This document shows positions 3 through 39,739 of a stretch of DNA of 44,502 bases, piece after piece. The stretch covers positions 1-44,502 of the IMG/VR virus record IMGVR_UViG_3300034101_003322; one strand, written 5' to 3'. The notes under the pieces are model-generated. The model saw nothing but the letters and a program-made list of their open reading frames with translations. It searched no databases and had not been told where the DNA came from. A program made the position numbers and the translations under genes. The number at the start of each line of letters is the position of its first letter. The first letter of the stretch is position 1. Source of the DNA: a virus.

Positions 3-197
3 GACAGAATCAAGGCCAGCAAAGATCGACACTTTAACAACATAGACTTAAAGGTTTGGGACCGACTATCACTTCCTATTCCCATGGAGTCGAATAGTCT
101 GCTGCTCAAGTGTGGCGACTTTCCTACACTTGCTGGCGCTGTTTGTATCTTAAAGGAAGCTGCCCAACAAATCAGGGAGGGTTCGGCTAATGTCTGA
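3..197 (+). CDS. hypothetical protein, open at left edge
   Basis: The frame is open from the left edge to TGA at 195-197 (64 codons) and overlaps the next start by 8 nt. If the frame does not continue from outside the window, the likely start is ATG at 84 (begins MESNSLLLK, 37 aa). The ATG at 84 has the leader style seen elsewhere (tattcccATGg), a TAGACT element at 43-48 and no Shine-Dalgarno. I recognise no family. The C-terminal part contains a helix-like stretch (ILKEAAQQIREG). Confidence 0.45.
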   Translation, partial: DRIKASKDRHFNNIDLKVWDRLSLPIPMESNSLLLKCGDFPTLAGAVCILKEAAQQIREGSANV

Positions 198-459
198 CCT
201 AATTCTCGGCCCAGTAATTATCACAAAATACTGTTGTGCTACCAACAACAAAGAGTCCCGTGTTTTGGCAACACACAAGAGAGATAACGATACAACTTGG
301 CGCTGTTATCTTAGTGTTGACAATGCCTTAAGCAATGAAGAAAACCACTTAAAAGCTGCCGAAAAATTACTAGCAAGGTGGCCATACGAAAATAACCTCA
401 AGATAGTTGGCAGGGGCCATGATGCTAGTAATTATTTCTTTCTTTGTCAGTCTGTCTAG
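190..459 (+). CDS. small hypothetical protein (89 aa)
   Basis: An 89-residue ORF starting at ATG 190 and overlapping the upstream ORF by 8 nt. A purine-rich AGGGAGG lies about 8-14 nt before the start, one of the few Shine-Dalgarno-like sequences in the window. The predicted pattern is a beta strand (ILGPVIITKY), then a charged stretch and a helix (NHLKAAEKLLARW). No family recognised. The neighbours are also small unknown genes on the same strand. Confidence 0.6.
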   Translation: MSDLILGPVIITKYCCATNNKESRVLATHKRDNDTTWRCYLSVDNALSNEENHLKAAEKLLARWPYENNLKIVGRGHDASNYFFLCQSV

Positions 460-460
460 C

Positions 461-504
461 ATTCATTCATTCATTCATTCATTCATTCATTCATTCATTC
501 ATTC
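461..504 (+). repeat. (ATTC)11 tetranucleotide microsatellite
   Basis: Eleven uninterrupted copies of ATTC (44 nt) lie between the stop codon of the 190-459 gene and the ATG at 510, ending 5 nt before that ATG. An upstream TTG at 444 also reads through the repeat in the same frame as the 510 gene, so a change in copy number would break that longer frame or change the length of the leader. Confidence 0.95.
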
Positions 505-509
505 AAGCC

Positions 510-734
510 ATGCAAGTCCAAAGCATCTCCCCTGCTAATTTTCTGGTTAATCTTGAGGCTAACAAGGATAAGCGTAAGGCAGAGATTTACGATGCTGCCA
601 TGGTGTTATTAAGAGCACAACATGACCTAGGGATAACAACTCTTAGCCTTGCTGCTGTTACTGACTTAAGCGAATTGTGCCGAAAGATCGAATTAGGTGA
701 GAAAATATCAGGATCGCCCTTGCTAGAGTTTTAA
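510..734 (+). CDS. small hypothetical protein downstream of ATTC repeat (74 aa)
   Basis: A 74-residue protein starting at ATG 510 (begins MQVQSISPANF). It is mostly helical, with one long charged/hydrophobic helix (AEIYDAAMVLLRAQ), and no family is recognised. I prefer ATG 510 over TTG 444 because the longer version would encode a repetitive FIHS stretch from the microsatellite. The repeat therefore occupies nearly the whole 5' leader, and copy-number change would alter spacing to any upstream promoter element (TAGCAT at 457-462 is a candidate). A perfect hairpin follows the stop codon at 760-787. Confidence 0.6.
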   Translation: MQVQSISPANFLVNLEANKDKRKAEIYDAAMVLLRAQHDLGITTLSLAAVTDLSELCRKIELGEKISGSPLLEF

Positions 735-759
735 CCTTGCAAACTGTTAAGCATCCAAG

Positions 760-787
760 ATCCTACCATGCTAAGGCATGGTAGGAT
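760..787 (+). promoter_or_regulatory. perfect 11-bp hairpin containing a -10-like element
   Basis: An inverted repeat with arms ATCCTACCATG (760-770) and CATGGTAGGAT (777-787) and a 6-nt loop. It lacks a U-tract. The right arm ends in TAGGAT (782-787), a -10-like hexamer 33 nt before ATG 815, the spacing shared by the other promoters here. It may therefore end the upstream transcript and start the next one. Confidence 0.6.
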
Positions 788-814
788 ATGCAAGTACCAA
801 AGCAAACAAGCACC

Positions 815-1204
815 ATGTCACAAACATTCTCAGACTGGAACAATGTTCCTCAAACAATCGAGAGAAAGATTGCCAAGATGTGGCAAAAATGTGGTGCGGT
901 ATGTAGCGAAACTAGCACCGATAGCAACGGTAAGAAAGCAGAGGTGTATAGGCTAGGTTCCCATAAGGTAATAGATAACTTAGACTATCTTACCGATGCA
1001 CAGAAAATAAAGTTATTCGAGATCGCAGCCAACCATGGCGGAGTTATCTTGCATAACTTGCTACATTCTTTATCTTTTGAGACTGAGGCTGTTAGGGTAA
1101 CTGGCGACAATGAAATATACTACGTGCCAAGCATGATCGTAGGTACGTGGCCACACTGCGGACTCTTTGGCAGTATGGCTGATGATGGTAGCATCCACAC
1201 CTAG
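815..1204 (+). CDS. hypothetical protein (129 aa)
   Basis: Starts at ATG 815 (begins MSQTFSDWNNV). An in-frame ATG at 788 would add nine residues, but it abuts the TAGGAT -10 element and would precede the predicted transcript start, so 815 is preferred. The protein has a central region (YLTDAQKIKLFEIAANH) that looks like a helical pair and a C-terminal part with tryptophan, histidine and glycine (GTWPHCGLFG). No family recognised. The gene is flanked on both sides by hairpin-promoter elements, so it looks like a single-gene transcription unit. Confidence 0.6.
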   Translation: MSQTFSDWNNVPQTIERKIAKMWQKCGAVCSETSTDSNGKKAEVYRLGSHKVIDNLDYLTDAQKIKLFEIAANHGGVILHNLLHSLSFETEAVRVTGDNEIYYVPSMIVGTWPHCGLFGSMADDGSIHT

Positions 1205-1227
1205 CCAGCCACATTACTAACTGTTAC

Positions 1228-1263
1228 GGGTCAGATGCAGAGCGTAGCATCTGACCCTAGGAT
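1228..1263 (+). promoter_or_regulatory. perfect 11-bp hairpin followed by TAGGAT promoter element
   Basis: Arms GGGTCAGATGC (1228-1238) and GCATCTGACCC (1247-1257) with an 8-nt loop and no U-tract. TAGGAT at 1258-1263 follows directly, 32 nt before ATG 1290. The arrangement repeats the hairpin at 760-787 with unrelated arm sequence. Confidence 0.6.
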
Positions 1264-1289
1264 AAGCAGGCAAGCAACCCACAGCAAGC

Positions 1290-1595
1290 ATGCAAACTCA
1301 ACACGCGACAGGCCAAACCGTCAAAAGCTCGGATCCTTGCAACTCTAGCCCTTGCGACCTAGCTTTCTTAACAGAAGAACAGCTAATAACGCAGACGCTT
1401 ATTCATCAGGATAAGTTTAATTCTAATTGGATGATTTGTATGAACAATCATTACAGTTCGGGTGTCTATATTGATGCTGAGATCGCAATGAATAACGCCT
1501 ATGCAATACTACAGAGAATATTAGATTATGTCTATGCTTATCGCTCTTCCAGCTTTTATGTTATGCTCAATAACTTGTGCGCTCCCAAAGCATAG
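1290..1595 (+). CDS. hypothetical protein (101 aa)
   Basis: A 101-residue protein, ATG 1290, without Shine-Dalgarno (leader ends acagcaagcATG). The N-terminal 20 residues are polar and include two cysteines (SDPCNSSPCD). The rest is predicted helical, with many Asn, Tyr and Ile residues and a long helix near the C-terminus (NNAYAILQRILDYVYAY). No family recognised. It lies in the A+T-richer left cluster of small genes. Confidence 0.6.
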   Translation: MQTQHATGQTVKSSDPCNSSPCDLAFLTEEQLITQTLIHQDKFNSNWMICMNNHYSSGVYIDAEIAMNNAYAILQRILDYVYAYRSSSFYVMLNNLCAPKA

Positions 1596-1618
1596 CCTAT
1601 CACTCTCCAATCCTTCCC

Positions 1619-1765
1619 ATGGCACGCTCCGCTCTGTTCATTGGATTCTGCGCTTATTTAGTTACCGGAACTATCGCTATGTCGTTCCTTAGTTCTTTAG
1701 CTGACAAGTTCAAGGCTAAACAGTTTCCTATTACAACACAAATAGAATTGATTAAGTATAACTAG
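1619..1765 (+). CDS. small membrane protein (48 aa)
   Basis: Starts at ATG 1619 in the context aatccttcccATGgc, the leader type used across this genome. The N-terminal 25 residues form one hydrophobic segment (SALFIGFCAYLVTGTIAMSF) followed by a basic, polar tail (DKFKAKQF). An upstream in-frame GTG at 1577 lies inside the preceding gene and is less likely. The family is unknown. A small single-span protein could belong to lysis or host interaction, but nothing more specific is visible. Confidence 0.45.
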   Translation: MARSALFIGFCAYLVTGTIAMSFLSSLADKFKAKQFPITTQIELIKYN

Positions 1766-1786
1766 CGCTACCACTCTCCAATCGCT

Positions 1787-1811
1787 CCCCGGTTTGCTAT
1801 GCTTACCGGGG
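1787..1811 (+). other. GC-rich inverted repeat
   Basis: Arms CCCCGGT (1787-1793) and ACCGGGG (1805-1811) around an 11-nt loop, 21 nt after the last plus-strand gene of the left cluster. A TTTT lies 14 nt downstream rather than adjacent, so this is only a weak terminator candidate for the plus-strand cluster. Confidence 0.35.
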
Positions 1812-2011
1812 GCAGGGTTGCGATTTTCGTGTAGCGGGGAGGGGGTGCCCATACCTCTCCCATCTCGCAGTGCCCGTATAAAAATATAACAACAATTCGC
1901 CCACAAACCGAACTGTTGCATGTTTTTCATTCTTCCCCAAACAATATACCCACATACAAAAATACGCCAGCGTACAAGCTAGCGTATAAGTAACCGGGGG
2001 TAAGGGTTGCG
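1805..2011. repeat. pair of near-identical direct repeats in the 1766-2012 intergenic region
   Basis: The sequence ACCGGGGGcAGGGTTGCG at 1805-1822 recurs as ACCGGGGGtaAGGGTTGCG at 1993-2011. Between them lie an AT-rich patch (tataaaaatataac near 1875) and the minus-strand terminator at 1958-1987. I see no gene in 1766-2012. The pair could be regulatory or a trace of a duplication. Confidence 0.6.
1958..1987 (-). terminator. intrinsic terminator of the minus-strand peptidase operon
   Basis: Read on the minus strand, ATACGCTAGC and GCTGGCGTAT pair (one G-U) around a 6-nt loop and run straight into TTTTT. It lies 25 nt after the stop codon of the peptidase gene at 2013, as expected for its terminator. 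Confidence 0.75.
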
Positions 2012-2012
2012 T

Positions 2013-2567
2013 TTATGGCCGGCAAGTAAGCATCCAGCTTTCGCCCCCTGCCATCCAGCGAGGATTCCAGTTTTTCCGGCTATAGTTTTGGCGATAGCCA
2101 TTGTAATTGGCAGTGTAACCGCCTTGAATTAACTTAGCCTCACCGTTTGGATCGTTGTGAATCCAATGCGTAGCGGTGTAACCTACGATTACACTCCAGT
2201 GACCGCCGCCAATAGGATTGCTAACATTGCCTTGATGCAGCCAGCCTACGGCGATAGGCCGGCCAGCGTTAATTTCAGCTTCAAGATCGGCCAACTTGCC
2301 GTGTTTCGTAAAATTGACAGTTAAACCCAAGTGGTGAAGAGTCCCAAGTTGTGCCGTTACGTCCGTTGTGTCACCAAATTGCCGACGAATCCGGTTGTAA
2401 GCATCATCGTTGGCGATCTTGCCGTGAAACATGGCCAGCATGGCGCAGCTAGAGCTGAAGCACTCCCGGTAGCCACGGCCACTGGCGTTATCGTTTTGAG
2501 ACTGCCACTTGACATCGAGAGGATTGGGAAACCTGGCAGCCGGTGGCCTGGGCGGAGTTGCGGTCAT
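2013..2567 (-). CDS. C39-like (papain-fold) cysteine peptidase, candidate endolysin
   Basis: A 184-residue protein with the layout of C39-like peptidases. The probable catalytic Cys lies in the N-terminal helix (RECFSSSCAM, near residues 35-44), with His in GGHWSVIVGY (near 123) and a following HNDP (near 139) for the third site. This family cleaves peptide bonds, and phage members are often found with lysis or tail functions. No other stand-alone peptidoglycan hydrolase is visible in the window, so a role as endolysin is a reasonable inference. There is no signal peptide. It is last in a three-gene minus-strand operon with a 2-nt gap upstream and a terminator downstream. Virion-associated protease is the alternative. 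Confidence 0.6.
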   Translation of the reverse strand: MTATPPRPPAARFPNPLDVKWQSQNDNASGRGYRECFSSSCAMLAMFHGKIANDDAYNRIRRQFGDTTDVTAQLGTLHHLGLTVNFTKHGKLADLEAEINAGRPIAVGWLHQGNVSNPIGGGHWSVIVGYTATHWIHNDPNGEAKLIQGGYTANYNGYRQNYSRKNWNPRWMAGGESWMLTCRP

Positions 2568-2569
2568 GG

Positions 2570-2983
2570 TCAGCTTCCAGCGTCAGCGGCCAGTCTATCA
2601 CGCTCACGCCAAACAAGATCGTCTAATTCGTCCATCCACTCTTCTGGAATAGCTTGATCAGTAGCATTGCGCATGGTCATTGCCTGAAGAATGTCAGCAG
2701 TGCGCAGCCTATCAACTTCGCGCCGAGGCTTAAGGTCAACTGAAGGCTTTATATGCCCTGTGGCAGCAGGGTAAAACATCTCGGGGCCATCCCCTCCCTC
2801 CCATGGGCAAGGTATGACAGCTTCTCTCAAGGCGGTCTTTCCTGCTTGCCGGCCAGAAATAATAATCCGACGACGGTTTGTGTCAGGGTTTTGCGCAAAG
2901 CTGTGCAGCGCTTTTATTGTCTCGTTAAAATTGCGCACTGCATCTGGCGTGAGTTCCAAGGCCGTTTCCTGTTGATTACCCAT
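2570..2983 (-). CDS. hypothetical protein with degenerate P-loop-like motif (137 aa)
   Basis: A 137-residue protein starting at ATG 2983 (begins MGNQQETALELT). It contains RRRIIISGRQAGKTALREA near residues 37-55, a hydrophobic strand followed by SGRQAGKT. This closely resembles the Walker A motif of the terminase in this phage (AGRRGGKT). The protein is far too short for a full ATPase, and I see no Walker B motif. The remainder is charged and helical. It is the middle gene of the peptidase operon. Function unknown; a terminase-derived fragment or a nucleotide-binding accessory protein are both possible. Confidence 0.6.
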   Translation of the reverse strand: MGNQQETALELTPDAVRNFNETIKALHSFAQNPDTNRRRIIISGRQAGKTALREAVIPCPWEGGDGPEMFYPAATGHIKPSVDLKPRREVDRLRTADILQAMTMRNATDQAIPEEWMDELDDLVWRERDRLAADAGS

Positions 2984-2997
2984 CAATCATAGCACGA

Positions 2998-3165
2998 TCA
3001 TCGCAGCGTCAGCGTCTTGCGAGCAACAAGGTGCGTCACCCCTGCCGGATCAACGACAACAACGCCAGCCGTTGCAGAGGACGGTAACAGTTTGTAGGAA
3101 TATGGCAATTTCCAGCCAATCTCGCCGTTGTGCCGGACCATCGTAAACTCGCGGGGGCGTTCCAT
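2998..3165 (-). CDS. small hypothetical protein (55 aa)
   Basis: First gene of the minus-strand triad: 55 residues, beginning MERPREFTMV, with predicted beta strands (SATAGVVVVDPAG, THLVARKTLTLR). TATGAT on the minus strand (3172-3177) would place the transcript start at the A of this ATG, giving a leaderless message. If the leader length common elsewhere applies, the start would be the internal ATG at 3141 (47 aa). No family recognised. Confidence 0.5.
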   Translation of the reverse strand: MERPREFTMVRHNGEIGWKLPYSYKLLPSSATAGVVVVDPAGVTHLVARKTLTLR

Positions 3166-3171
3166 GGCTCA

Positions 3172-3177
3172 ATCATA
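3172..3177 (-). promoter_or_regulatory. -10-like element (TATGAT) for the peptidase operon
   Basis: GCTATGATTGA on the minus strand just before the operon. The same 11-mer recurs before the second gene (2983-2993), also close to its start codon. Confidence 0.5.
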
Positions 3178-3205
3178 GCTCATCCCTTGCCGGCAAGCAA
3201 CGTGA

Positions 3206-3224
3206 TAGAATGACACTGCAACAA
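3206..3224 (+). promoter_or_regulatory. promoter/leader repeat copy 1 (TAGAAT)
   Basis: A 19-nt sequence starting TAGAATGACACTGCAACAA is identical at 3206-3224 and 3499-3517. In each copy the TAGAAT hexamer lies 29-31 nt before a start codon (3237 and 3528). Identity extends through the presumed transcript start, so the unit looks like a duplicated promoter plus leader. Confidence 0.65.
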
Positions 3225-3236
3225 AACGATCCGCGC

Positions 3237-3506
3237 ATGACTCCGTTTTTCTGCCTGCTTTTGACAATTTACGTTCCAGAAACAAAACAGTTACGCCGTT
3301 GCGCTGTCGAATACGACCCGAATAGCCACCCAGACGGCGCGGATGTTATGGACTATTGGCAGGAACCGGAACACAAGGAAATTCTTTTGGCGCTGGCTTT
3401 TTGCGGGGAAACGCAAAACGACGAAGACTTCGTATTGGTTGACGTTCTCCTGATCGACTTAATTCTTACTAGGGATATGGCGCTGGAAAAGGTTGTGGTA
3501 GAATGA
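3237..3506 (+). CDS. hypothetical protein (89 aa)
   Basis: Starts at ATG 3237 (begins MTPFFCLLLTIYVPE). An in-frame ATG at 3210 overlaps the TAGAAT promoter element and would lie upstream of the transcript start, so it is rejected by comparison with the duplicated promoter before 3528. The N-terminus is hydrophobic (FFCLLLTIYV), followed by an acidic protein with strands and helices (HKEILLALAFCG, FVLVDVLLIDLI). No family recognised. It precedes the dCTP deaminase-like gene, and the promoter of that gene overlaps its last codons. Confidence 0.6.
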   Translation: MTPFFCLLLTIYVPETKQLRRCAVEYDPNSHPDGADVMDYWQEPEHKEILLALAFCGETQNDEDFVLVDVLLIDLILTRDMALEKVVVE

Positions 3507-3517
3507 CACTGCAACAA
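3499..3517 (+). promoter_or_regulatory. promoter/leader repeat copy 2 (TAGAAT)
   Basis: Identical to 3206-3224. The TAGAAT at 3499-3504 lies 29 nt before ATG 3528 and overlaps the stop codon region of the upstream gene. Confidence 0.65.
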
Positions 3518-3527
3518 TCAACGCATC

Positions 3528-4043
3528 ATGGGCACTCTCGCTGACTGGCGGATCCACGAACGCTGCATGGCTGGCATGGTCACTCCGTATGATCCTGCGC
3601 TGGTCAACCCGGCATCGCTTGACTTGCGCTTGGGCAGCAACATTATGATCGAATCAGCGGAAAGCCCAGAGATGGTGCTAGTTTCAATCGCTAAATACAC
3701 AGAGAAAAATCCTTATCTCATAGTGCCAGGACAATTCTTTTTGGCTGAAACTGAAGAGTTTTTTAACATTCCCAACGACTTGGAAGGCCAATTTATCCTT
3801 AAATCCTCTCGCGCGAGGAGTGGATTACAGCATTTGATGGCCGGTTTTTGCGATCCCGGCTGGCACGGCTCGCGCTTGACACTTGAGCTTAAAAATGTTC
3901 GCCAACTTTGGCCGATAGGCATTTATCCAGGCATGAAAATCGGGCAGATGAAGTTTTCTACGATGGATTCCGAGCCTACGTTCTCTTACGCCGTCACCGG
4001 CAGGTATAATAACGATGCAACCGTCACCGCATCAAAGGGCTGA
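3528..4043 (+). CDS. dcd: dCTP deaminase-like protein
   Basis: A 171-residue protein of the dCTP deaminase/dUTPase superfamily, which deaminates dCTP to dUTP (or hydrolyses dUTP) to feed dTTP synthesis. Visible signatures are PASLDLRLG (28-36), SSRARSGL (93-100), DPGWHGSRLTLEL (109-121) with the expected catalytic Glu at 120, GMKIGQM (135-141) and the C-terminal YAVTGRYNND. The length is slightly below the roughly 190 of the bacterial enzyme, as is common for phage versions. The start ATG 3528 follows the duplicated TAGAAT promoter. It probably acts with the DUF6378-like gene just downstream. Confidence 0.85.
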   Translation: MGTLADWRIHERCMAGMVTPYDPALVNPASLDLRLGSNIMIESAESPEMVLVSIAKYTEKNPYLIVPGQFFLAETEEFFNIPNDLEGQFILKSSRARSGLQHLMAGFCDPGWHGSRLTLELKNVRQLWPIGIYPGMKIGQMKFSTMDSEPTFSYAVTGRYNNDATVTASKG

Positions 4044-4047
4044 AGTT

Positions 4048-4572
4048 ATGACAAGCATCGAAGAAACACTGGAACAACGCGGCAAGCGTTACGGCAAGTT
4101 TACGGATCACGCTCAAGTCACGCAAGACCTAAAGCGAGTCGTCGCCGCCCACTTACAAGGAGGCCGCCCGCACATGGCAGCAGATCAATGGGAGGCGCTG
4201 GATATGATTTTCCACAAAATAGCTCGCATTGTCTGCGGCGATCCTAACTATGCCGATAGCTGGCACGATATTGCCGGTTACGCCAAGTTGGTGGAAGATC
4301 GGCTTAATGCTAATGGCGTCTTTGCCGTCGAGGAGCCGGCAGAGTTGGAATGGCCGCAGGAGGTGGTAATCAAAACAGTGGCTGGCCAAACTAAGCTTGC
4401 CAACGGATCGACTCGTATTGAGTTTGCCGATGGATCTTACGAAGAGCTGCCCCCATTAGAGGCCGTGCCCACCGAAGCCGCACCCATTTGCCCAAACTGC
4501 TCTTGCGCTGCCTGCGGCGCCATTGCTAGACTGCAAAACAATAGCGGCCTTAGACAAGCGATTGGCTTGTAA
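4048..4572 (+). CDS. DUF6378-like phage protein
   Basis: A 174-residue protein starting at ATG 4048, four nt after the stop of the dCTP deaminase-like gene. The first 100 residues carry the conserved pattern of a common phage family (DUF6378): LEQRGKRYGKF, QWEALDMIFHKIARI, GDPNYADSWHDIAGYAKLV. Its biochemical role is not established to my knowledge. The helical pattern and the regular company of nucleotide enzymes suggest, but do not show, a MazG-like nucleotide-metabolism role. The C-terminal region carries cysteines (CPNCSCAACGA) that may bind metal. An in-frame ATG at 4015 would overlap the upstream gene and is less likely. Confidence 0.75.
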   Translation: MTSIEETLEQRGKRYGKFTDHAQVTQDLKRVVAAHLQGGRPHMAADQWEALDMIFHKIARIVCGDPNYADSWHDIAGYAKLVEDRLNANGVFAVEEPAELEWPQEVVIKTVAGQTKLANGSTRIEFADGSYEELPPLEAVPTEAAPICPNCSCAACGAIARLQNNSGLRQAIGL

Positions 4573-4574
4573 CA

Positions 4575-4829
4575 ATGGGCAAACGAACTAATCCAGAAAA
4601 GTGCGCAAATCCTAGCTGCGCATCTTCCCACCAAGTCATTATCGTAGAAACACGCATGACAGCGTGCGGCGGTCGCGCAAGACGGCGGCGCTGCGATCAA
4701 TGCGGCCACCTGTGGTACACCGTGCAGCCACCTGAAGAGCAAGTCGAAAGCTGGCGGCTGATCTGGACGAAGAAAGGGCCAGTCACACTGGAGCCACCAC
4801 CAGAATCGCCAGAAAAAGGCAAAATATAG
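4575..4829 (+). CDS. zinc-ribbon protein (84 aa)
   Basis: An 84-residue protein starting 2 nt after the previous stop. Two Cys pairs, CANPSC (10-15) and CDQC (40-43), flank a short strand region, and the second pair is followed by GHLWYTVQ. This is a zinc-ribbon layout like the N-terminal ribbon of NrdR, but there is no ATP-cone domain. The C-terminus is Pro/Glu/Lys-rich and probably disordered. It could be a small regulator or a nucleic-acid-binding accessory. It ends 4 nt from the convergent terminase gene, with no terminator visible between them. Confidence 0.7.
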   Translation: MGKRTNPEKCANPSCASSHQVIIVETRMTACGGRARRRRCDQCGHLWYTVQPPEEQVESWRLIWTKKGPVTLEPPPESPEKGKI

Positions 4830-4833
4830 AGAA

Positions 4834-6207
4834 TTAGTAGACTCTGTGGGTAGTAACAGTACCCGATTCGCCTTTTGCAAGGTTAAATTTGCCTAGACAC
4901 AAATAACCAAAGGCGTCGAAAGCATGATCAACGCCAAGTTTTTTGTTTGGCATTCTTGTTCCTTCGGCATAACCTAGTGTACGGAACGACTTTATTAGCT
5001 CCCGGCAACGTGGATGGATCTTGGTATGCACTTCCCCGTCTGCCGTGCGAAGCGCTGCGTTTACGGATCGAATCTTGTCAGCGGTGTTATAGGGCGCTTC
5101 AGGGGCAAAAACAGTAATGCCAGCCTTCCTAAGGATCTGGTGATCGCTAACGCCAACACCAGACGTTTGCTTTCTTTTGCCGGTCGGGTCAGGGCAAGCA
5201 ATAATGCGGCGGCGAGTATCCGCGTCTTCGCTTGCCCAGCATTCGCCACCATATAGATCAATTAGCACGTCTGCCATGTCCCATGTATTGGCGCCCTTTA
5301 GGTTCAGTTCATTAAAAATTCGCAATTCTACAGCTCTGCCGTTTACCTTAATAATGTTTGCGCAAATAGCAGTAAGCGGATCGTTGTTAAAGTCCATTCC
5401 AACATATAGCGGCAACCTTGGATCGTCCTCAATCGTTGAGTCGATATTATCCATCGAAAAACACGACACCACAAGACCCGTATTTGATAGTATCTTTGCT
5501 TCGTACTCGCGCTCGAACACTTCAGGCGCCAGCGTTCTTCTAGCTTCCGCAATTTCGGCTGCTGGAATGTTGCCGCCTTGCAAGGATGTGTACTCATATA
5601 ATGACCATTGCTTGGGATCGAGCCTTTCCAGGCCAGGATCGGCCATATCAGCATTTTTCAAAAGCAAGATTGTTTCGTAGAACCAACCTGCGGTGCCTTC
5701 AGGCGAGGGAGTGGTAGTAAAGAGCGCCCAGCCGTTGCGGTCAGAAAGTGCAGGGCGGATAACTGATCTCCATGTATATTCCGTCTGGAAAGCGCATTCG
5801 TCTAAATTTACCCCGCTTAATGCAGGACCGCGCAAAGCATCTGGATCTTCAGAGCCCTTAAGATAGATGCAAGATCCGTTAATCAAGTCTATTCTAAGGT
5901 TTGATTCGTTTTTCTTTCTTATCCAACGTTCGGGAATAATACTCTTGTAAGTATCCCAAGCGATCTCTTTTGCCATCCGATACGTTGGCGCAACATAATA
6001 GTAATTGCCCTTGCGCTCACTAGCGCCGCGCAGCATTTCGATTGCCCCCAGCACCGTCTTTCCACCACGCCGGCCAGCTAAGACAACACGAAAACGGCGT
6101 CGATCATTAAAAATCATCCCCTGCATTGGCCGCAGAGAAAGCCGGTTTTTGCCTACTACAATATCGCCACTTGGGCGAAGTCCCGTAGGGGCAGTAGCTG
6201 TCGCCAT
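4834..6207 (-). CDS. terL: terminase large subunit
   Basis: A 457-residue packaging motor. The ATPase shows Walker A AGRRGGKT (44-51), an adenine-side motif region YVAPTYRMAK (71-80), Walker B VNLDE (133-137) and coupling motif TTTPSPEG. The C-terminal RNase H-like nuclease is visible as YVGMDFNNDP, a central CPDPTGKRK and DHAFDAFGYL near the end. I chose ATG 6207 because longer versions run into the divergent portal gene, and TACAGT on the minus strand lies 27 nt upstream. The gene is on the strand opposite to portal and capsid genes, which is unusual. No small terminase subunit was recognised. Confidence 0.9.
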   Translation of the reverse strand: MATATAPTGLRPSGDIVVGKNRLSLRPMQGMIFNDRRRFRVVLAGRRGGKTVLGAIEMLRGASERKGNYYYVAPTYRMAKEIAWDTYKSIIPERWIRKKNESNLRIDLINGSCIYLKGSEDPDALRGPALSGVNLDECAFQTEYTWRSVIRPALSDRNGWALFTTTPSPEGTAGWFYETILLLKNADMADPGLERLDPKQWSLYEYTSLQGGNIPAAEIAEARRTLAPEVFEREYEAKILSNTGLVVSCFSMDNIDSTIEDDPRLPLYVGMDFNNDPLTAICANIIKVNGRAVELRIFNELNLKGANTWDMADVLIDLYGGECWASEDADTRRRIIACPDPTGKRKQTSGVGVSDHQILRKAGITVFAPEAPYNTADKIRSVNAALRTADGEVHTKIHPRCRELIKSFRTLGYAEGTRMPNKKLGVDHAFDAFGYLCLGKFNLAKGESGTVTTHRVY

Positions 6208-14277: not shown

Positions 14278-17200
14278 GTGGCTGACTATCGGGGGCTAAT
14301 CAGTGTTGGCGTACAAGGCCTTGGCGAGATTCGCCAACTTAACGCAGCGCTTGAAAGAGCTAACCAGCTATACGGCAACCTTGAAAGCGCACAGCTTAAC
14401 GTAGGCCAGATTGCGCAATCTGCCACTCGCAACGTCAACAGAGCCGCTGGTCGCAGGGCGCAAGCAGGGCGCGATCTTTCTAGCGCCAGTCGCACTGTCG
14501 GAAACGTGGCAATGCGCCGCGATCCTGATACTGGGCGCTTTGTTGCCGGCGGGCCAAACGCTACGGCGCGAAGACTGGCAAACTCTCAACTACGGCTTGC
14601 CCAGCGTGACGTAAGGGAGTCGGATCGAGCCTTAAGAGAAGAACTGCAAAACCGCCGCTTAGTTACCGCTGCCGAGCGTAGATACGCAAAAGCGCTCAAT
14701 CGTACTAGCAATATCCAGGAAAACATACAGCGCAGGGGCGTAGACGCAGCCACTCAGGTAGCAAGCGCTTCGGCAGGTATTGGTAACGCAAGTCGTGGCA
14801 ATTATCTTACCAATTTATACCAAGGCCGGCAACGGGAATTTGCGAGGGGCGGCGCTGGTATGGGCCTAAGCCCAGAGCTGCAACAGCAAGCCCGTAACGT
14901 CCGTGGCGCCTGGGATCTAGCGACTGCTGGCGGCAGAGAAAATCTGCAACTGATGCAGCGAATCGCCACCGAAATGGCGGGCTTATTGCGCCAGCAAAAC
15001 GAGCTAAACCGTGGTCGCACTGGACGATCTACCGGCTTCGAAACGGGTAGACGCGGCCAGGAAAGGATCACCGCCCTGTCTGCGATGCCGGGAGCGGACC
15101 CAGCGCGAATTAGAAGGCTTCGCTCGCAAGCGACAGATGTAATTTCCGCCAGCAATACGGGCGATATTGCAGGCTCACGCGCAGCAACGTTGCGCATGAA
15201 TGCTTCGATTGGCAGGTATACACGCGAACTAAATGCGGCAGCGGCAAGTTTACGAGCTGCAATGAGTCGTGGCGGGCCAAGTCTGCCCATTCGTGGCGGC
15301 GCTCAGGTGGCCGGTTCCCCTGCCTACATGGATCGACTGGCGCGACTTGGCGGCCCAAGAGAAAGCATCAGAGGCAGAAAGAATTTAGAAGGTTCGCCGG
15401 CCTACATTGAAGAACAGTCTCGGCAATTACAGCGAGCCATAAACGCAGGCGGGCCAAGGGAAAGCATTAGAGGCAGGAAGAATCTTGGCGGTTCTCCTGC
15501 TGCTGTTACGGAAGGCACTAGAAGGCTCAATGCCGCCAGAAAGGCTGCTGAAAACGCTGCCGCGAAAAGGGTTGCGATTCAGGCGACACTAGAAGGCAGG
15601 GCGTTTGATGACAGGCTAAAAGAATCAGACAGTCTGGCAAGGAAAGAAATTAACCAGATCAAGACAGAAGGCAAAGAGGCTGGAAAGACCTTTGGCCAGC
15701 GTTTGCAAAATCGTGTCAAAGCAAGACGACTAGAGGCCAAAGGCCAGAAAGACCTTAGCGCTGCTACTCAGGCGGCCCAGGGCGCAACCGCAAAGGCGAT
15801 TACAACTCAGGCGACACTAGAAGGCAGGGCATTTGATGACAACCTAAAAGAATCAAATACACTTGCAAAGCAGGAAATAAAGCGAGCGAAAGCAGACAAT
15901 AGGGATGCCGGCAGGGACTTCAGCCAGCGCTTACAGAATCGCGCCAAAACAAAACAGCTAGAGGCTAAGGGACTGGAAAACCTTAGCGCTGCTACGAGAA
16001 GTGCGCAAAGCGCAAGCACAAGCGCAGCCGTAACACAAGCAGGAATAAACGCTAAACCGTTCGACGACAGGCTAAAAGCGTCTGCCGAAGCCACAAGGAA
16101 AGAAGCGAAACAATTTGACACGCAAAACAAAGAGGCCGGGAGAACCTTTGAACGGCGCCTGCAAAATCGCGTTGATGCCGGCAAGAATCTTAGCGCTGCT
16201 ACTCAAGCGGCTCAAGTCGCCGCTACAAAAACAGCCGCAGTCCAGGCAGCTTTAGACGATAAAACGTTCAAAAATAAACTGGACAAAATAAATCAACTTG
16301 CCAAAGCAGAGCTAAAACAAATCAAGGACAGTGATAAAGCTGACTTAAAAGCCTTTGACGATAGACTAAAAAATCGTACAGCCAAGAAAAAGCAAGACAA
16401 GCAAAACGCCTTCTTCCAGGGCGATGCACGGAGCGCAATCGGTGACGCGCTGATCGGTGGCGCCTTCCCGGCGCTGTTCGGCCAGGGCCTTGGCGCATCG
16501 GCGGGCGGTGCCCTGGGCGGGGGGCTAGGCGGCGCCCTGGGCGGCTCGTTTGGCTTCGGTCTGAGCCTTGTCGGCACAGCGGTAGGCCAGGTCATTGATA
16601 CAACCGCAAAAAATCTTACCGATCTCGCCAGCGCACTTAAAACTCCAGGCGACACGATGGAAGCGCTTGCTAAAAGCGGCTTCCATGTTAGCAATAGTCT
16701 GAAGTTTCAAGTTCAGCAACTCGAATCAGTTGGGCGTGCTTATGACGCGCAGACGCTGGTACTTCAAGAGGTCGAAAAGCGTCTTGGCCCTGGATCGGTG
16801 CGCCAGCTTAACGCACTTGAGTCAGAGCAGCGGCGATTACAGGAGCAATGGTCTTCGATTGCCGGCACACTGCAATCTGAGTTATTGCCTGCGCTTGTTG
16901 GCTTTACCGGTGTAATTGCCGACACCATTAACGTAGCGCGTGGCATTAACACCCTGCCAGGCGCCAAACAGATTGGATCTGCTCTTAGGGGCCAGGGGAT
17001 TGGCGGCGCCATATTAACGGCGGCCAACCCACTTGGCGGCGCTACTTCTTTGTTCGACAAGCTACAGCGGCGCGGCAAGGCGGTTGCGGCGGGACCGGCG
17101 GGCAACAGGCAGGCCGCAAAACCTCAGGACGAATTTGCTGCCGGAACAGCGCGAGTCCAAGAATCGCGTAAACTTGCAGATCAAATACAGTCGGCTTACC

Positions 17201-31752: not shown

Positions 31753-32649
31753 CTATCGAGCGTGCATCAATGGGCCGAGCGCGTTAAGTGCGGCGCCAAA
31801 CACCGGATGGCCGCCAGATGCCGCCTTTCTTTGGTGGTGCAGCGCAAGGCCACCGGCAAACTGAAGCCAGCCCTGATCAAGGTCAGGCCGATTCCAGGTT
31901 TTTTCGCTGACGCCATCGACGCTCAAGCCGAAATTGATCCCGCGCTCAACGCGCAGGCCGGCTACCGCTTCGACACCAAAAGCGTAAGAACCTTGTTGCA
32001 TTTGCCAGCCACCTCGCACCTTGAAAGTGGACTCCTTAACCTTGCCGGCTTCGGCGTCAACTTTTGTAAGAAGTTCGCAGATGCTGGCAAGGATCTCATC
32101 GTCTGGAGCGTATTCACACAAACGCTTATAGCGCTCGGCAAAACGGTCCGGCTGATTAGTCTTCCAATCGCACACGCTCAGGATCCCATCAACTTCGGCA
32201 ATGAGATCAGGAGTGAAGCCGTAGCAGCCGCCAGGGTGAATCATCGGCTCTTCGATGACATACACCTTGCCAATACGCGGCCTAACGTAGTCATACCAAA
32301 GAGAATGGATGATGGCAGCTTCCGTGTCTCTGTGAAAATCAGTGCTAATTTTCTCCTGCTCGAAAGAGCCAAGTGACAAGCCAACCATGCCATGCAGCCT
32401 TGTGCCAATGTCTGCGCGGATGTCTCGAACTCGATCCATGAAATACTCGGCGCCCATATCGGTAAGCCCCTTGCGCATCAAGGATTGCTTCCAATGCTCT
32501 TTTGGAAAATCCTTGCCGCCAGCAAGCTCGATGATATGCGAAGATGATGGTACTTCGATCTGCTCTTGTGGAGTGTGATAGAAATACTTGTGGTCTTCAT
32601 CTCTAAAAAAAACTCCCGGTTGAGCCGGGAGTAGTTGCAGTTCAGGCAT
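31753..32649 (-). CDS. PD-(D/E)XK nuclease (RecB/Cas4-like exonuclease)
   Basis: A 298-residue protein starting at ATG 32649; longer in-frame starts lie inside the upstream gene. The N-terminus (GVFFRDEDHKYFYH, then EVPSSSHIIELAGG) and the catalytic core match phage exonucleases of the RecB/Cas4 group: YGFTPDLIAEVDGILSVCDWKTNQP, with Asp and the DWK motif. MQQGSYAFGVEAVAG, where Gln-Tyr is expected, follows. Beside the Erf-like annealing protein it probably resects DNA ends for recombination, as lambda Exo does with Beta. A terminator-like hairpin with U8 lies inside its first codons. Confidence 0.8.
   Translation of the reverse strand: MPELQLLPAQPGVFFRDEDHKYFYHTPQEQIEVPSSSHIIELAGGKDFPKEHWKQSLMRKGLTDMGAEYFMDRVRDIRADIGTRLHGMVGLSLGSFEQEKISTDFHRDTEAAIIHSLWYDYVRPRIGKVYVIEEPMIHPGGCYGFTPDLIAEVDGILSVCDWKTNQPDRFAERYKRLCEYAPDDEILASICELLTKVDAEAGKVKESTFKVRGGWQMQQGSYAFGVEAVAGLRVERGINFGLSVDGVSEKTWNRPDLDQGWLQFAGGLALHHQRKAASGGHPVFGAALNALGPLMHAR
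32605..32632 (-). terminator. hairpin with U8 tract inside the start of the nuclease gene
   Basis: On the minus strand ACTCCCGG / CCGGGAGT pair around a 5-nt loop and continue into TTTTTTTT. The hairpin covers codons about 6-13 of the nuclease. It could end most transcripts of the upstream SSB-like/Erf operon and leave the nuclease expressed at a lower level. Confidence 0.65.
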
Positions 32650-32654
32650 CAGGA

Positions 32655-33302
32655 TCAGAAGCCGGGGGGAAGGTGCTGGGAAGGCATGAGGCCCGCAGCG
32701 GCCTGGCCATGGATCGCGCCAGGCATGGGCTGGACGGGCGCTGGAGGGGCAACAGGCGTAGGCGCTTGGCCTTGTGCCGGGGGCTGGGCGTAACCCTGTG
32801 GGGCCTGCTGCTGATAGGCCGGTTGCGGTTGCTGAGGCTGTGCCTGATCGACAAAGCCAGCAGGCATCGGCACGTGGGCTGGCCAACCCTGTGGAGCCGC
32901 CTGAGGCTGTGTTGGCTGTGGCGCTTGCGCGTAACCCTGGGGAGCCGCCTGTGGCTGTGCGTACTGAGGTTGCTGAGGCGCTTGTTGTTGGGGCGCTTGG
33001 GCATATCCCTGCGCAGCCTGTTGGCGTGCAAGGGCGCTATTTTGTGTCTCGGCCAAAGTCGAAACACTGCCGGACAGGCACGGCTTCTTGTCGCCGGGAT
33101 TAACTGGTTGCAGGTAAAGCCCAACGTCGAGCTTAATGCACGGCTGGCCGTTGTAGTCCAACTCGTATTGGCCTGCGTTAAACGCAGCATTTGCTTCTTG
33201 TAGCAATTCCCAAGAAAGCTCAAACTTGCCTTTGTAGTCAGGCTGGTTTGCAGCGCTCTTGCGATCATTGACCCAAAAAGCGAGTCTGTTGCGGGAAGCC
33301 AT
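32655..33302 (-). CDS. putative single-stranded DNA-binding protein (215 aa)
   Basis: The first ~85 residues are ordered and beta-rich (NRLAFWVNDRKS, DYKGKFEL, YNGQPCIKLDVGLYLQPVN). The rest is a Gln/Pro/Ala/Gly-rich linker ending in LPPGF. This layout, a folded head with a disordered tail ending in a hydrophobic residue, resembles SSB. The gene lies between the annealing protein and the nuclease, where phages often place SSB. An OB fold cannot be confirmed by eye. It is coupled to the Erf gene by TGATG and separated from the nuclease by 5 nt. Confidence 0.5.
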   Translation of the reverse strand: MASRNRLAFWVNDRKSAANQPDYKGKFELSWELLQEANAAFNAGQYELDYNGQPCIKLDVGLYLQPVNPGDKKPCLSGSVSTLAETQNSALARQQAAQGYAQAPQQQAPQQPQYAQPQAAPQGYAQAPQPTQPQAAPQGWPAHVPMPAGFVDQAQPQQPQPAYQQQAPQGYAQPPAQGQAPTPVAPPAPVQPMPGAIHGQAAAGLMPSQHLPPGF

Positions 33303-34030
33303 CAGGAAGGTTGCGAAAGGACGGGAAGAGGTTGGACGGGATTAACCATGCCAGGCGGCATGGTTGAAATGACTGGCCAACCCTGGGGTGTAGTGGCGTA
33401 GTTGGTCGCCATCGGCGGCTGTGGTTGGTAGCCGGTCGTCAACGGCTGCGAAAAGACTGCCTGAGGGTGTTGCACTTGCTGACCCGGCGCCGGCCAAGAG
33501 GCGGGAGCAGGCAGGCCAGGTAGTTGCGCTGCGGCGGGAGGATTGTTGCCATAGACAACCCCGTTGCCATCGTCTTCGTCTTTTTCAGAACAAAGAGCTA
33601 ACAACGCATAAAGATTGAAGCGAACACCGTACCTGACATGCCCAGCTACCTTGTGCATGGTAGTCAGATCGGTAACGGGAAAGTCTGAAAACAGCTCTTC
33701 GCTACCATCCTTGAAGCCGACAGTTGTACGTAAACGCCAAAACGGCTCTTCGTACACGAATTGCGAGTAAATCACAATTCCCTGGTCAAGCAGGGCCGGC
33801 TCAACTGCGCGAAGCAGTTTTGGTAGGCCGGTGTACTCTGATTTTAGATAAGTGTTTTTTTGATCCCAGCTAAGATCGCCAAAGTCTGCCTTGGCAGCGG
33901 CGATTGCTTCAAGCAGGGAGGGTCTAGGAGGCGCAATGAGCGGGATTGGTGCAATGGGTTGCGCCATTGGTGGCGGCGCTTGCGTTGGCGGTGCTACCGC
34001 TTGCGGTGGAGCTGTTGAGGTTCGTGTCAT
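33302..34030 (-). CDS. erf: Erf-family single-strand annealing protein
   Basis: A 242-residue protein. The core, about residues 37-150, matches the ERF superfamily: LLEAIAAAKADF, then YTGLPKLLRAVEPALLDQGIV, LRTTVGFKDGSEE and HKVAGHVRYGVRFNLYALLAL, ending in DEDDGNG. Erf-type proteins anneal complementary single strands and promote recombination. Both ends are Pro/Gln-rich and probably disordered. The C-terminal tail shares the motif GWPxxxxMPxGxV with the SSB-like protein. Own promoter TACACT 28 nt upstream; TGATG overlap downstream. Confidence 0.8.
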   Translation of the reverse strand: MTRTSTAPPQAVAPPTQAPPPMAQPIAPIPLIAPPRPSLLEAIAAAKADFGDLSWDQKNTYLKSEYTGLPKLLRAVEPALLDQGIVIYSQFVYEEPFWRLRTTVGFKDGSEELFSDFPVTDLTTMHKVAGHVRYGVRFNLYALLALCSEKDEDDGNGVVYGNNPPAAAQLPGLPAPASWPAPGQQVQHPQAVFSQPLTTGYQPQPPMATNYATTPQGWPVISTMPPGMVNPVQPLPVLSQPS

Positions 34031-39207: not shown

Positions 39208-39213
39208 TATTAT
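39208..39213 (+). promoter_or_regulatory. extended -10 element (TGCTATTAT)
   Basis: TATTAT with upstream TG. It overlaps an in-frame ATG at 39212 and lies 31 nt before ATG 39239, so it decides the start of the resolvase gene. Confidence 0.6.
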
Positions 39214-39238
39214 GGCGATGACCCTCGCTTCATCGCCA

Positions 39239-39739
39239 ATGAAGTCCATCCTTTCACTTGACCTTGGCACCACAACCGGATGGGCATTGCGAAACCGCGA
39301 TGGCTCGATTGTTTCAGGCAGTCAATCGTTTAAGCCGCAACGCTTTGAGGGTGGCGGAATGCGCAACCTTCGCTTTAATCGTTGGCTGTCAGAGATTGCA
39401 GTCGAAACCGTAGAAGAACCTCGCCCTCCTCTCGGTACTGAATTTATCGAAAAAACTTTAATTGACGTGATCGTGTTTGAGGAAGTTCGCAGTCACGCTG
39501 GCACCGACGCGGCTCAGATATATGGTGGCCTGATGGGTCAAGTTGAGGTACTGGGTGAAACAAAAAAGATTCCTTACGAAGGCGTGCCTGTTGGCACAAT
39601 CAAGAAACATGCTACCGGCAAAGGCAACGCTAACAAGCTGATGATGATTACTGCCATGCAAGCGCTTGGCCATAATCCGGTTGATGATAACGAAGCAGAT
39701 GCCTTGGCGCTTCTTCGTTGGGCAATCGAGAGGTATTGA
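39239..39739 (+). CDS. RuvC-like Holliday junction resolvase
   Basis: A 166-residue protein with the RNase H-like fold of RuvC resolvases. The first catalytic Asp is in SILSLDLGTTTGW (residues 3-15), the Glu in DVIVFEEVRSH, and the late acidic pair in DNEADALALLRWA, with the substrate loop GTIKKHATGKGNANK between. It probably resolves branched DNA before packaging. The ATG at 39212 overlaps the -10 element, so 39239, which begins directly at strand one, is preferred. Confidence 0.8.
   Translation: MKSILSLDLGTTTGWALRNRDGSIVSGSQSFKPQRFEGGGMRNLRFNRWLSEIAVETVEEPRPPLGTEFIEKTLIDVIVFEEVRSHAGTDAAQIYGGLMGQVEVLGETKKIPYEGVPVGTIKKHATGKGNANKLMMITAMQALGHNPVDDNEADALALLRWAIERY

Follow-up and report, generated by a model that had tools for sequence, protein, structure and literature searches.

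The window that we analysed is the whole 44,502-nt stretch of IMG/VR record IMGVR_UViG_3300034101_003322. In its accessory island a G-free tetranucleotide microsatellite separates two small genes. On balance we favour the reading that, in an array of cassettes, this tract forms an intercistronic seam inside which recombination can resolve, whose length is elastic and which gives the downstream gene an unstructured leader. The joint and its surroundings contain the following features:

190..459, plus strand: gene F6 (P0003), 89 aa, phrog_3199, whose TAG adjoins the tract; orthologues in 10 viral contigs
460..505, plus strand: (CATT)11.5 microsatellite, the putative intercistronic seam and leader, from the sequence and TRF; equivalents of variable length in relatives
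506..509, plus strand: AGCC between tract and ATG, without a Shine-Dalgarno motif, from the sequence
510..734, plus strand: gene F2 (P0002), 74 aa; dN/dS 0.07-0.17; AlphaFold2 pLDDT 64
735..814, plus strand: stem-loop (12-bp stem) and leader before the F4 start, right end of the F2 cassette; repeated at many joints; fold z = -3.8
788..1204, plus strand: F4, 138 aa from ATG 788, the next cassette gene
507..1000, plus strand: segment divergent from contig 042945, a putative replaced cassette, from mismatch positions

The perfect period-4 run covers 46 nt (460-505, plus strand). The preliminary description had placed (ATTC)11 at 461-504, ending 5 nt before ATG 510, and the sequence and TRF confirmed this; the whole run equals (CATT)11.5. 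It is unique in the 44,502-bp record, where the longest other non-trivial period-4 run was 11 nt. The longest runs in 200 trinucleotide-Markov simulations averaged 11.8 and never exceeded 18, against the 46 observed. The tract had also been described as filling the leader of F2. This stands for its extent, since it occupies 46 of the 50 nt between the F6 stop and ATG 510, but not for its setting: its first base follows the TAG (457-459) that ends the upstream ORF (190-459), and it is therefore an intercistronic spacer rather than a leader behind an obvious promoter.

The repeat unit is rare at this length. We found (ATTC)7 in 24 stretches of 2.9 million IMG/VR contigs, and 11 of these align to the window lineage, with alignments from hundreds of bases to several kb in length. 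The control (CTTA)7, which has the same composition, was present in 23 stretches that fell into about 20 unrelated groups. In the distant viral contigs L013, L015, L020, L021 and L030, CATT runs of 34-86 nt stand directly after a gene resembling the terminase small subunit, and some of these contigs carry many dispersed CATTCAT copies downstream of the run. These TerS-like genes gave no match to the F1 profile.

The window is probably a cyanophage. Its best named match is cyanophage S-2L (36%, IMG/VR portal), and a stretch encoding a C39 peptidase has 72% DNA identity to the freshwater Synechococcus phage S-SRP02. No adenylosuccinate-synthetase match, which would indicate PurZ, the marker of S-2L-type modified DNA, was found in the record. 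No end repeats were detected. Position 1 falls inside gene F16, and in the contig IMGVR_UViG_3300042301_003145 (L008) the points that correspond to window 44230 and window 1 are separated by about 4 kb of island DNA; a few kb are therefore likely missing from the record.

Scanning viral contigs by protein and by pattern gave a lineage set of about 20 related contigs. All of them come from metagenomes, and each six-digit name (e.g. 042945) is the end of the contig's IMG dataset number. Five chance loci from the exact-leader pattern scan (L056-L059, L061) were discarded, and a further scan for F10-tract alleles gave no new contig. Scanning 84,980 genomes with the F2 profile and the stem-loop leader pattern revealed no host or named-prophage copy; among named phages the F2 protein had no match, and DNA matches were short or distant only. 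F2 also had no Pfam or PHROGs match, and its AlphaFold2 model is all-helical with low confidence (the pLDDT of 64 given above). In this lineage the accessory island, upstream of the dCTP deaminase gene (3528-4043, plus strand, in the window), consists of small gene families arrayed in differing order.

Variation in copy number, which the preliminary description had predicted, was borne out by counts in related genomes. At the F6|F2 joint the tract measures 46 nt in the window and in 042301, 38 nt in 042945, 29 nt in 042924 and 12 nt in 044846. At this joint and its equivalents the tract spans 12-46 nt in the about 20 contigs, and the stop-to-start spacer of one gene pair ranges from 18 to 50 nt. 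Contigs 044643 and 002835 have identical flanks over 300 bp upstream and 225 bp downstream and differ by one unit (34 vs 30 nt), so that close relatives show the whole-unit length change typical of contingency loci. L008 has the same 11.5 copies as the window within 6014 identical bases. Taken together, the compared sequences indicate that tract length is elastic over short evolutionary time, with equal lengths in three of the four closest contig pairs.

Support for a seam comes from the genes on either side. Nine pairs are joined by the tract: F6|F2, F10|F2, F37|F2, F10|F37, F6|F18, F10|F18, F10|54-aa ORF, 172-aa ORF|F37 and 98-aa ORF|F6. Tract-type leaders precede F2, F37, F18, F6 and a 54-aa ORF. 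Which bases begin the tract depends on the upstream gene (C-ATTC after F6, ATTC after F10, TTTTC after F37) and which bases end it on the downstream gene (TTCAARCC before F2, TAGAACA before F18, CACTTAACC before F37), while the middle is elastic between these gene-specific edges. Even the shortest joints, F6|F30 and F10|F30, retain 8-10 nt of repeat. The shared side aligns with about 76-100% identity, the swapped side with about 50%, and the switch occurs at the tract.

Two comparisons illustrate this. Contig 042924 carries two 325-bp, 100%-identical copies of tract, F2 and stem-loop leader; the two copies have different neighbours to the left as well as to the right, and their tracts measure 40 and 29 nt. 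The window and 042945 are identical over 335-506 and 1001-5613, except for an 8-nt difference in the tract, and divergent over 507-1000. This pattern points to a replaced cassette at 507-1000, whose left border can be placed within 335-506, the interval containing the tract, and no more finely.

The stem-loop leader takes part in the same array. The form at 735-814 recurs at many joints of the lineage, including L019 (042462), L022 (042924) and L029 (002835), and its arms change together, from TACC/GGTA to TGCC/GGCA. F18 is led by the tract after F6 or F10 and by the stem-loop leader after F2. Between 002835 and 044643, one cassette (F18) is present or absent between two stem-loop leaders. The true start of F4 is probably ATG 815, not 788. 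Another strong stem-loop (1200-1289, 11-bp stem, z = -2.7) precedes F8 (101 aa) and is repeated in relatives.

Starts led by the tract have no Shine-Dalgarno motif. Folding predictions gave them a mean dG of -2.6 kcal/mol vs -11.8 kcal/mol for other starts, with 79% vs 56% unpaired bases, and the tract region folds worse than its shuffles (z = +1.4). Composition and predicted folding thus suggest that the tract may serve as an unstructured, G-poor leader lacking a Shine-Dalgarno motif. We found no convincing promoter or regulator site flanking it, and the 50-nt gap contains the tract alone. The lone nearby plus-strand promoter-like match (407-435, 9/12) lies inside the upstream gene, and the region around it holds 9 such matches vs 5.5 expected, which is chance level.

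A lesser but real possibility is that the tract is a neutral bystander. Small genes of the island would have G-poor, CATYC-rich leaders, one of which was expanded by slippage, and, independently of it, illegitimate or homologous recombination would swap cassettes where genes meet. Simple counts of distinct pairs per joint (8/14 for the tract, 47/65 for the stem-loop leader, 63/98 for the remaining joints) gave no excess of mosaicism at tract joints. Since mosaicism is no lower at joints that lack the tract, the tract may only sit where exchanges are tolerated. Moreover, spacers at several other joints are G-poor ATCATCCC-like repeats whose copy number varies too (6% G vs 21% before structural genes). 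This points to a general tendency of the island towards repetitive G-poor leaders, and part of the pattern may be neutral slippage in low-complexity leaders. However, a mere bystander does not fit well with edges that are conserved exactly up to the repeat across unrelated partners, with a tract found beside many genes and not F2 alone, or with a 28-nt perfect run of the ATTC unit that is otherwise very rare in viral contigs. Contigs 044729 (L068), 036398 (L102) and 034111 (L014) carry this second, ATCATCCC-like leader repeat, with varying copy number, before other small island genes.

The seam reading, which we prefer, starts from what is observed: a G-free (ATTC)n lies between stop and start at several joints of small co-directional genes, the flanking genes are exchanged and the run stays. 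Because the run would be the only DNA common to otherwise unrelated cassettes, recombination between co-infecting phages could be resolved inside it and leave both genes undamaged. The phage may carry out the exchange with enzymes of its own, namely an exonuclease, an Erf-type annealing protein and a RuvC-like resolvase, for which the window encodes these candidates:

33302..34030, minus strand: Erf-like single-strand annealing protein, candidate recombinase (phrog_2324, E 3.4e-10; Pfam ERF, E 1.7e-4, just below its cut-off)
31753..32886, minus strand: exonuclease (phrog_298, E 4.2e-13), candidate partner of the annealing protein
39212..39739, plus strand: RuvC-like Holliday junction resolvase (phrog_159, E 8.4e-25)

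Mosaicism has been linked to Red recombination between diverged sequences, and a similar action was suggested, but not tested, for Erf (PMC2327257). The tract would tolerate crossovers in any register, and exchange together with replication slippage would make its length elastic. The run would also act as an unstructured leader without a Shine-Dalgarno motif for the downstream gene, and exchanges may be tolerated there for this reason. A change in tract length alters the stop-to-start distance alone and keeps the reading frame. A bolder version, which we hold to be rather unlikely, is that an expandable microsatellite is maintained as a recombination zipper: there would be no integrase or att site, and the repetitive register would join any cassettes by single-strand annealing, an integron-like exchange without an integrase.

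Slippage might instead tune the translation of F2 through coupling by altering the stop-to-start spacing, a graded form of phase variation. The varying copy number, including the one-unit change between identical flanks, and the spread of the spacer at one gene pair would allow this. There is also a precedent in the meningococcus, where intergenic tetranucleotide tracts change nadA expression (PMC2791445). As in Neisseria meningitidis nadA, the perfect tetranucleotide tract lies upstream of a start and varies by whole units, but here it is intercistronic, without promoter or operator flanks, in a phage and known from sequence alone (PMC2791445). The missing promoter or regulator site, the equal lengths in most of the closest contig pairs and the lack of a known surface or host-range role for F2 all speak against tuning, and we consider it improbable.

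Far less probable still is that the tract is an assembly artefact, as the preliminary description had allowed. All sequences are metagenome assemblies and repeats are prone to collapse, but the tract occurs in many contigs from different IMG datasets, both at one shared joint and at others, and in L008 its length is the same within 6 kb of identical DNA, although exact lengths may be wrong by some units. On/off phase variation by frame, in which the gene would start at TTG 444 and slippage would break this longer frame as proposed earlier, has practically nothing to recommend it beyond the frame being open in the window: the in-frame upstream extension of F2 has no start codon in 5 of the 6 relatives compared, reading upstream of the F2 start is set by the neighbouring gene, and ATG 510, which lies after the tract, is conserved as the F2 start with purifying selection running from it. 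We therefore rejected frame switching, another hallmark of contingency loci; as judged from the sequences, slippage is unable to switch F2 off by frame.

It has long been asked whether phage mosaics at gene borders arise from short boundary homology or from illegitimate joining followed by selection, in part because no boundary sequence is seen at most joints. In this island the putative seam is visible, recurs at many joints and keeps in its length a record of exchange or slippage. With such a visible seam of elastic length, crossover placement and copy number become countable in new genomes. The locus is also a warning that a microsatellite before a phage start codon need not mean phase variation.

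By analogy, the tract may work like the promoter early stem-loops (PeSLs) of T4-like phages or like lambdoid boundary sequences, without being a member of either class. PeSLs, as outlined in PMC4503421, are mobile cassettes with a regulatory role that serve the shuffling of modules (Arbiol 2010; Comeau 2014). The likeness to that outline is a repeated intergenic element at the borders of small accessory genes that offers homology for shuffling (PMC4503421), and at its nine joined pairs the tract is indeed repeated at the borders of exchanged genes. In contrast to PeSLs as outlined there, it has neither a stem-loop (z = +1.4) nor a convincing promoter; measured against the same outline, the stem-loop leader at 735-814 is closer to the PeSL type than the tract is. 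The tract further differs from PeSLs, as far as that outline goes, in being a length-variable microsatellite, and the phage here is not T4-like and has an Erf-type recombinase. Lambdoid boundary sequences are short stretches of shared DNA that allow homologous exchange where modules meet (PMC3029335). The tract is likewise shared DNA at the junction of unrelated modules, but as an elastic tetranucleotide repeat at many joints of one island.

In cluster K mycobacteriophages, the SAS/ESAS motif stands immediately before the starts of many small genes, and about half of the SAS genes have an inverted repeat (PMC3203893). The tract resembles SAS as a conserved sequence directly before the starts of several genes, but by the published description it is another kind of sequence and has no fixed length (PMC3203893). 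Furthermore, one gene family here can carry either leader depending on its neighbour, whereas ESAS go with the gene phamily (PMC3203893). The simple sequence repeats of T7M/T3-group phages show whole-unit indels between related phages as well, though in very short repeats for which no position at cassette joints is described (PMC4956903).

We also noted other features of the window. A 23-nt direct repeat (96%) at 3202-3224 and 3495-3517 flanks a 98-aa ORF (3210-3506); the alignment of relatives jumps between the two copies, so the intervening segment is absent there. A cysteine-peptidase-type endolysin (PHROG lysis family) is encoded at 2013-2567 on the minus strand. Within an 1826-aa ORF, an imperfect 228-bp tandem duplication (76%) extends over 15579-15995.
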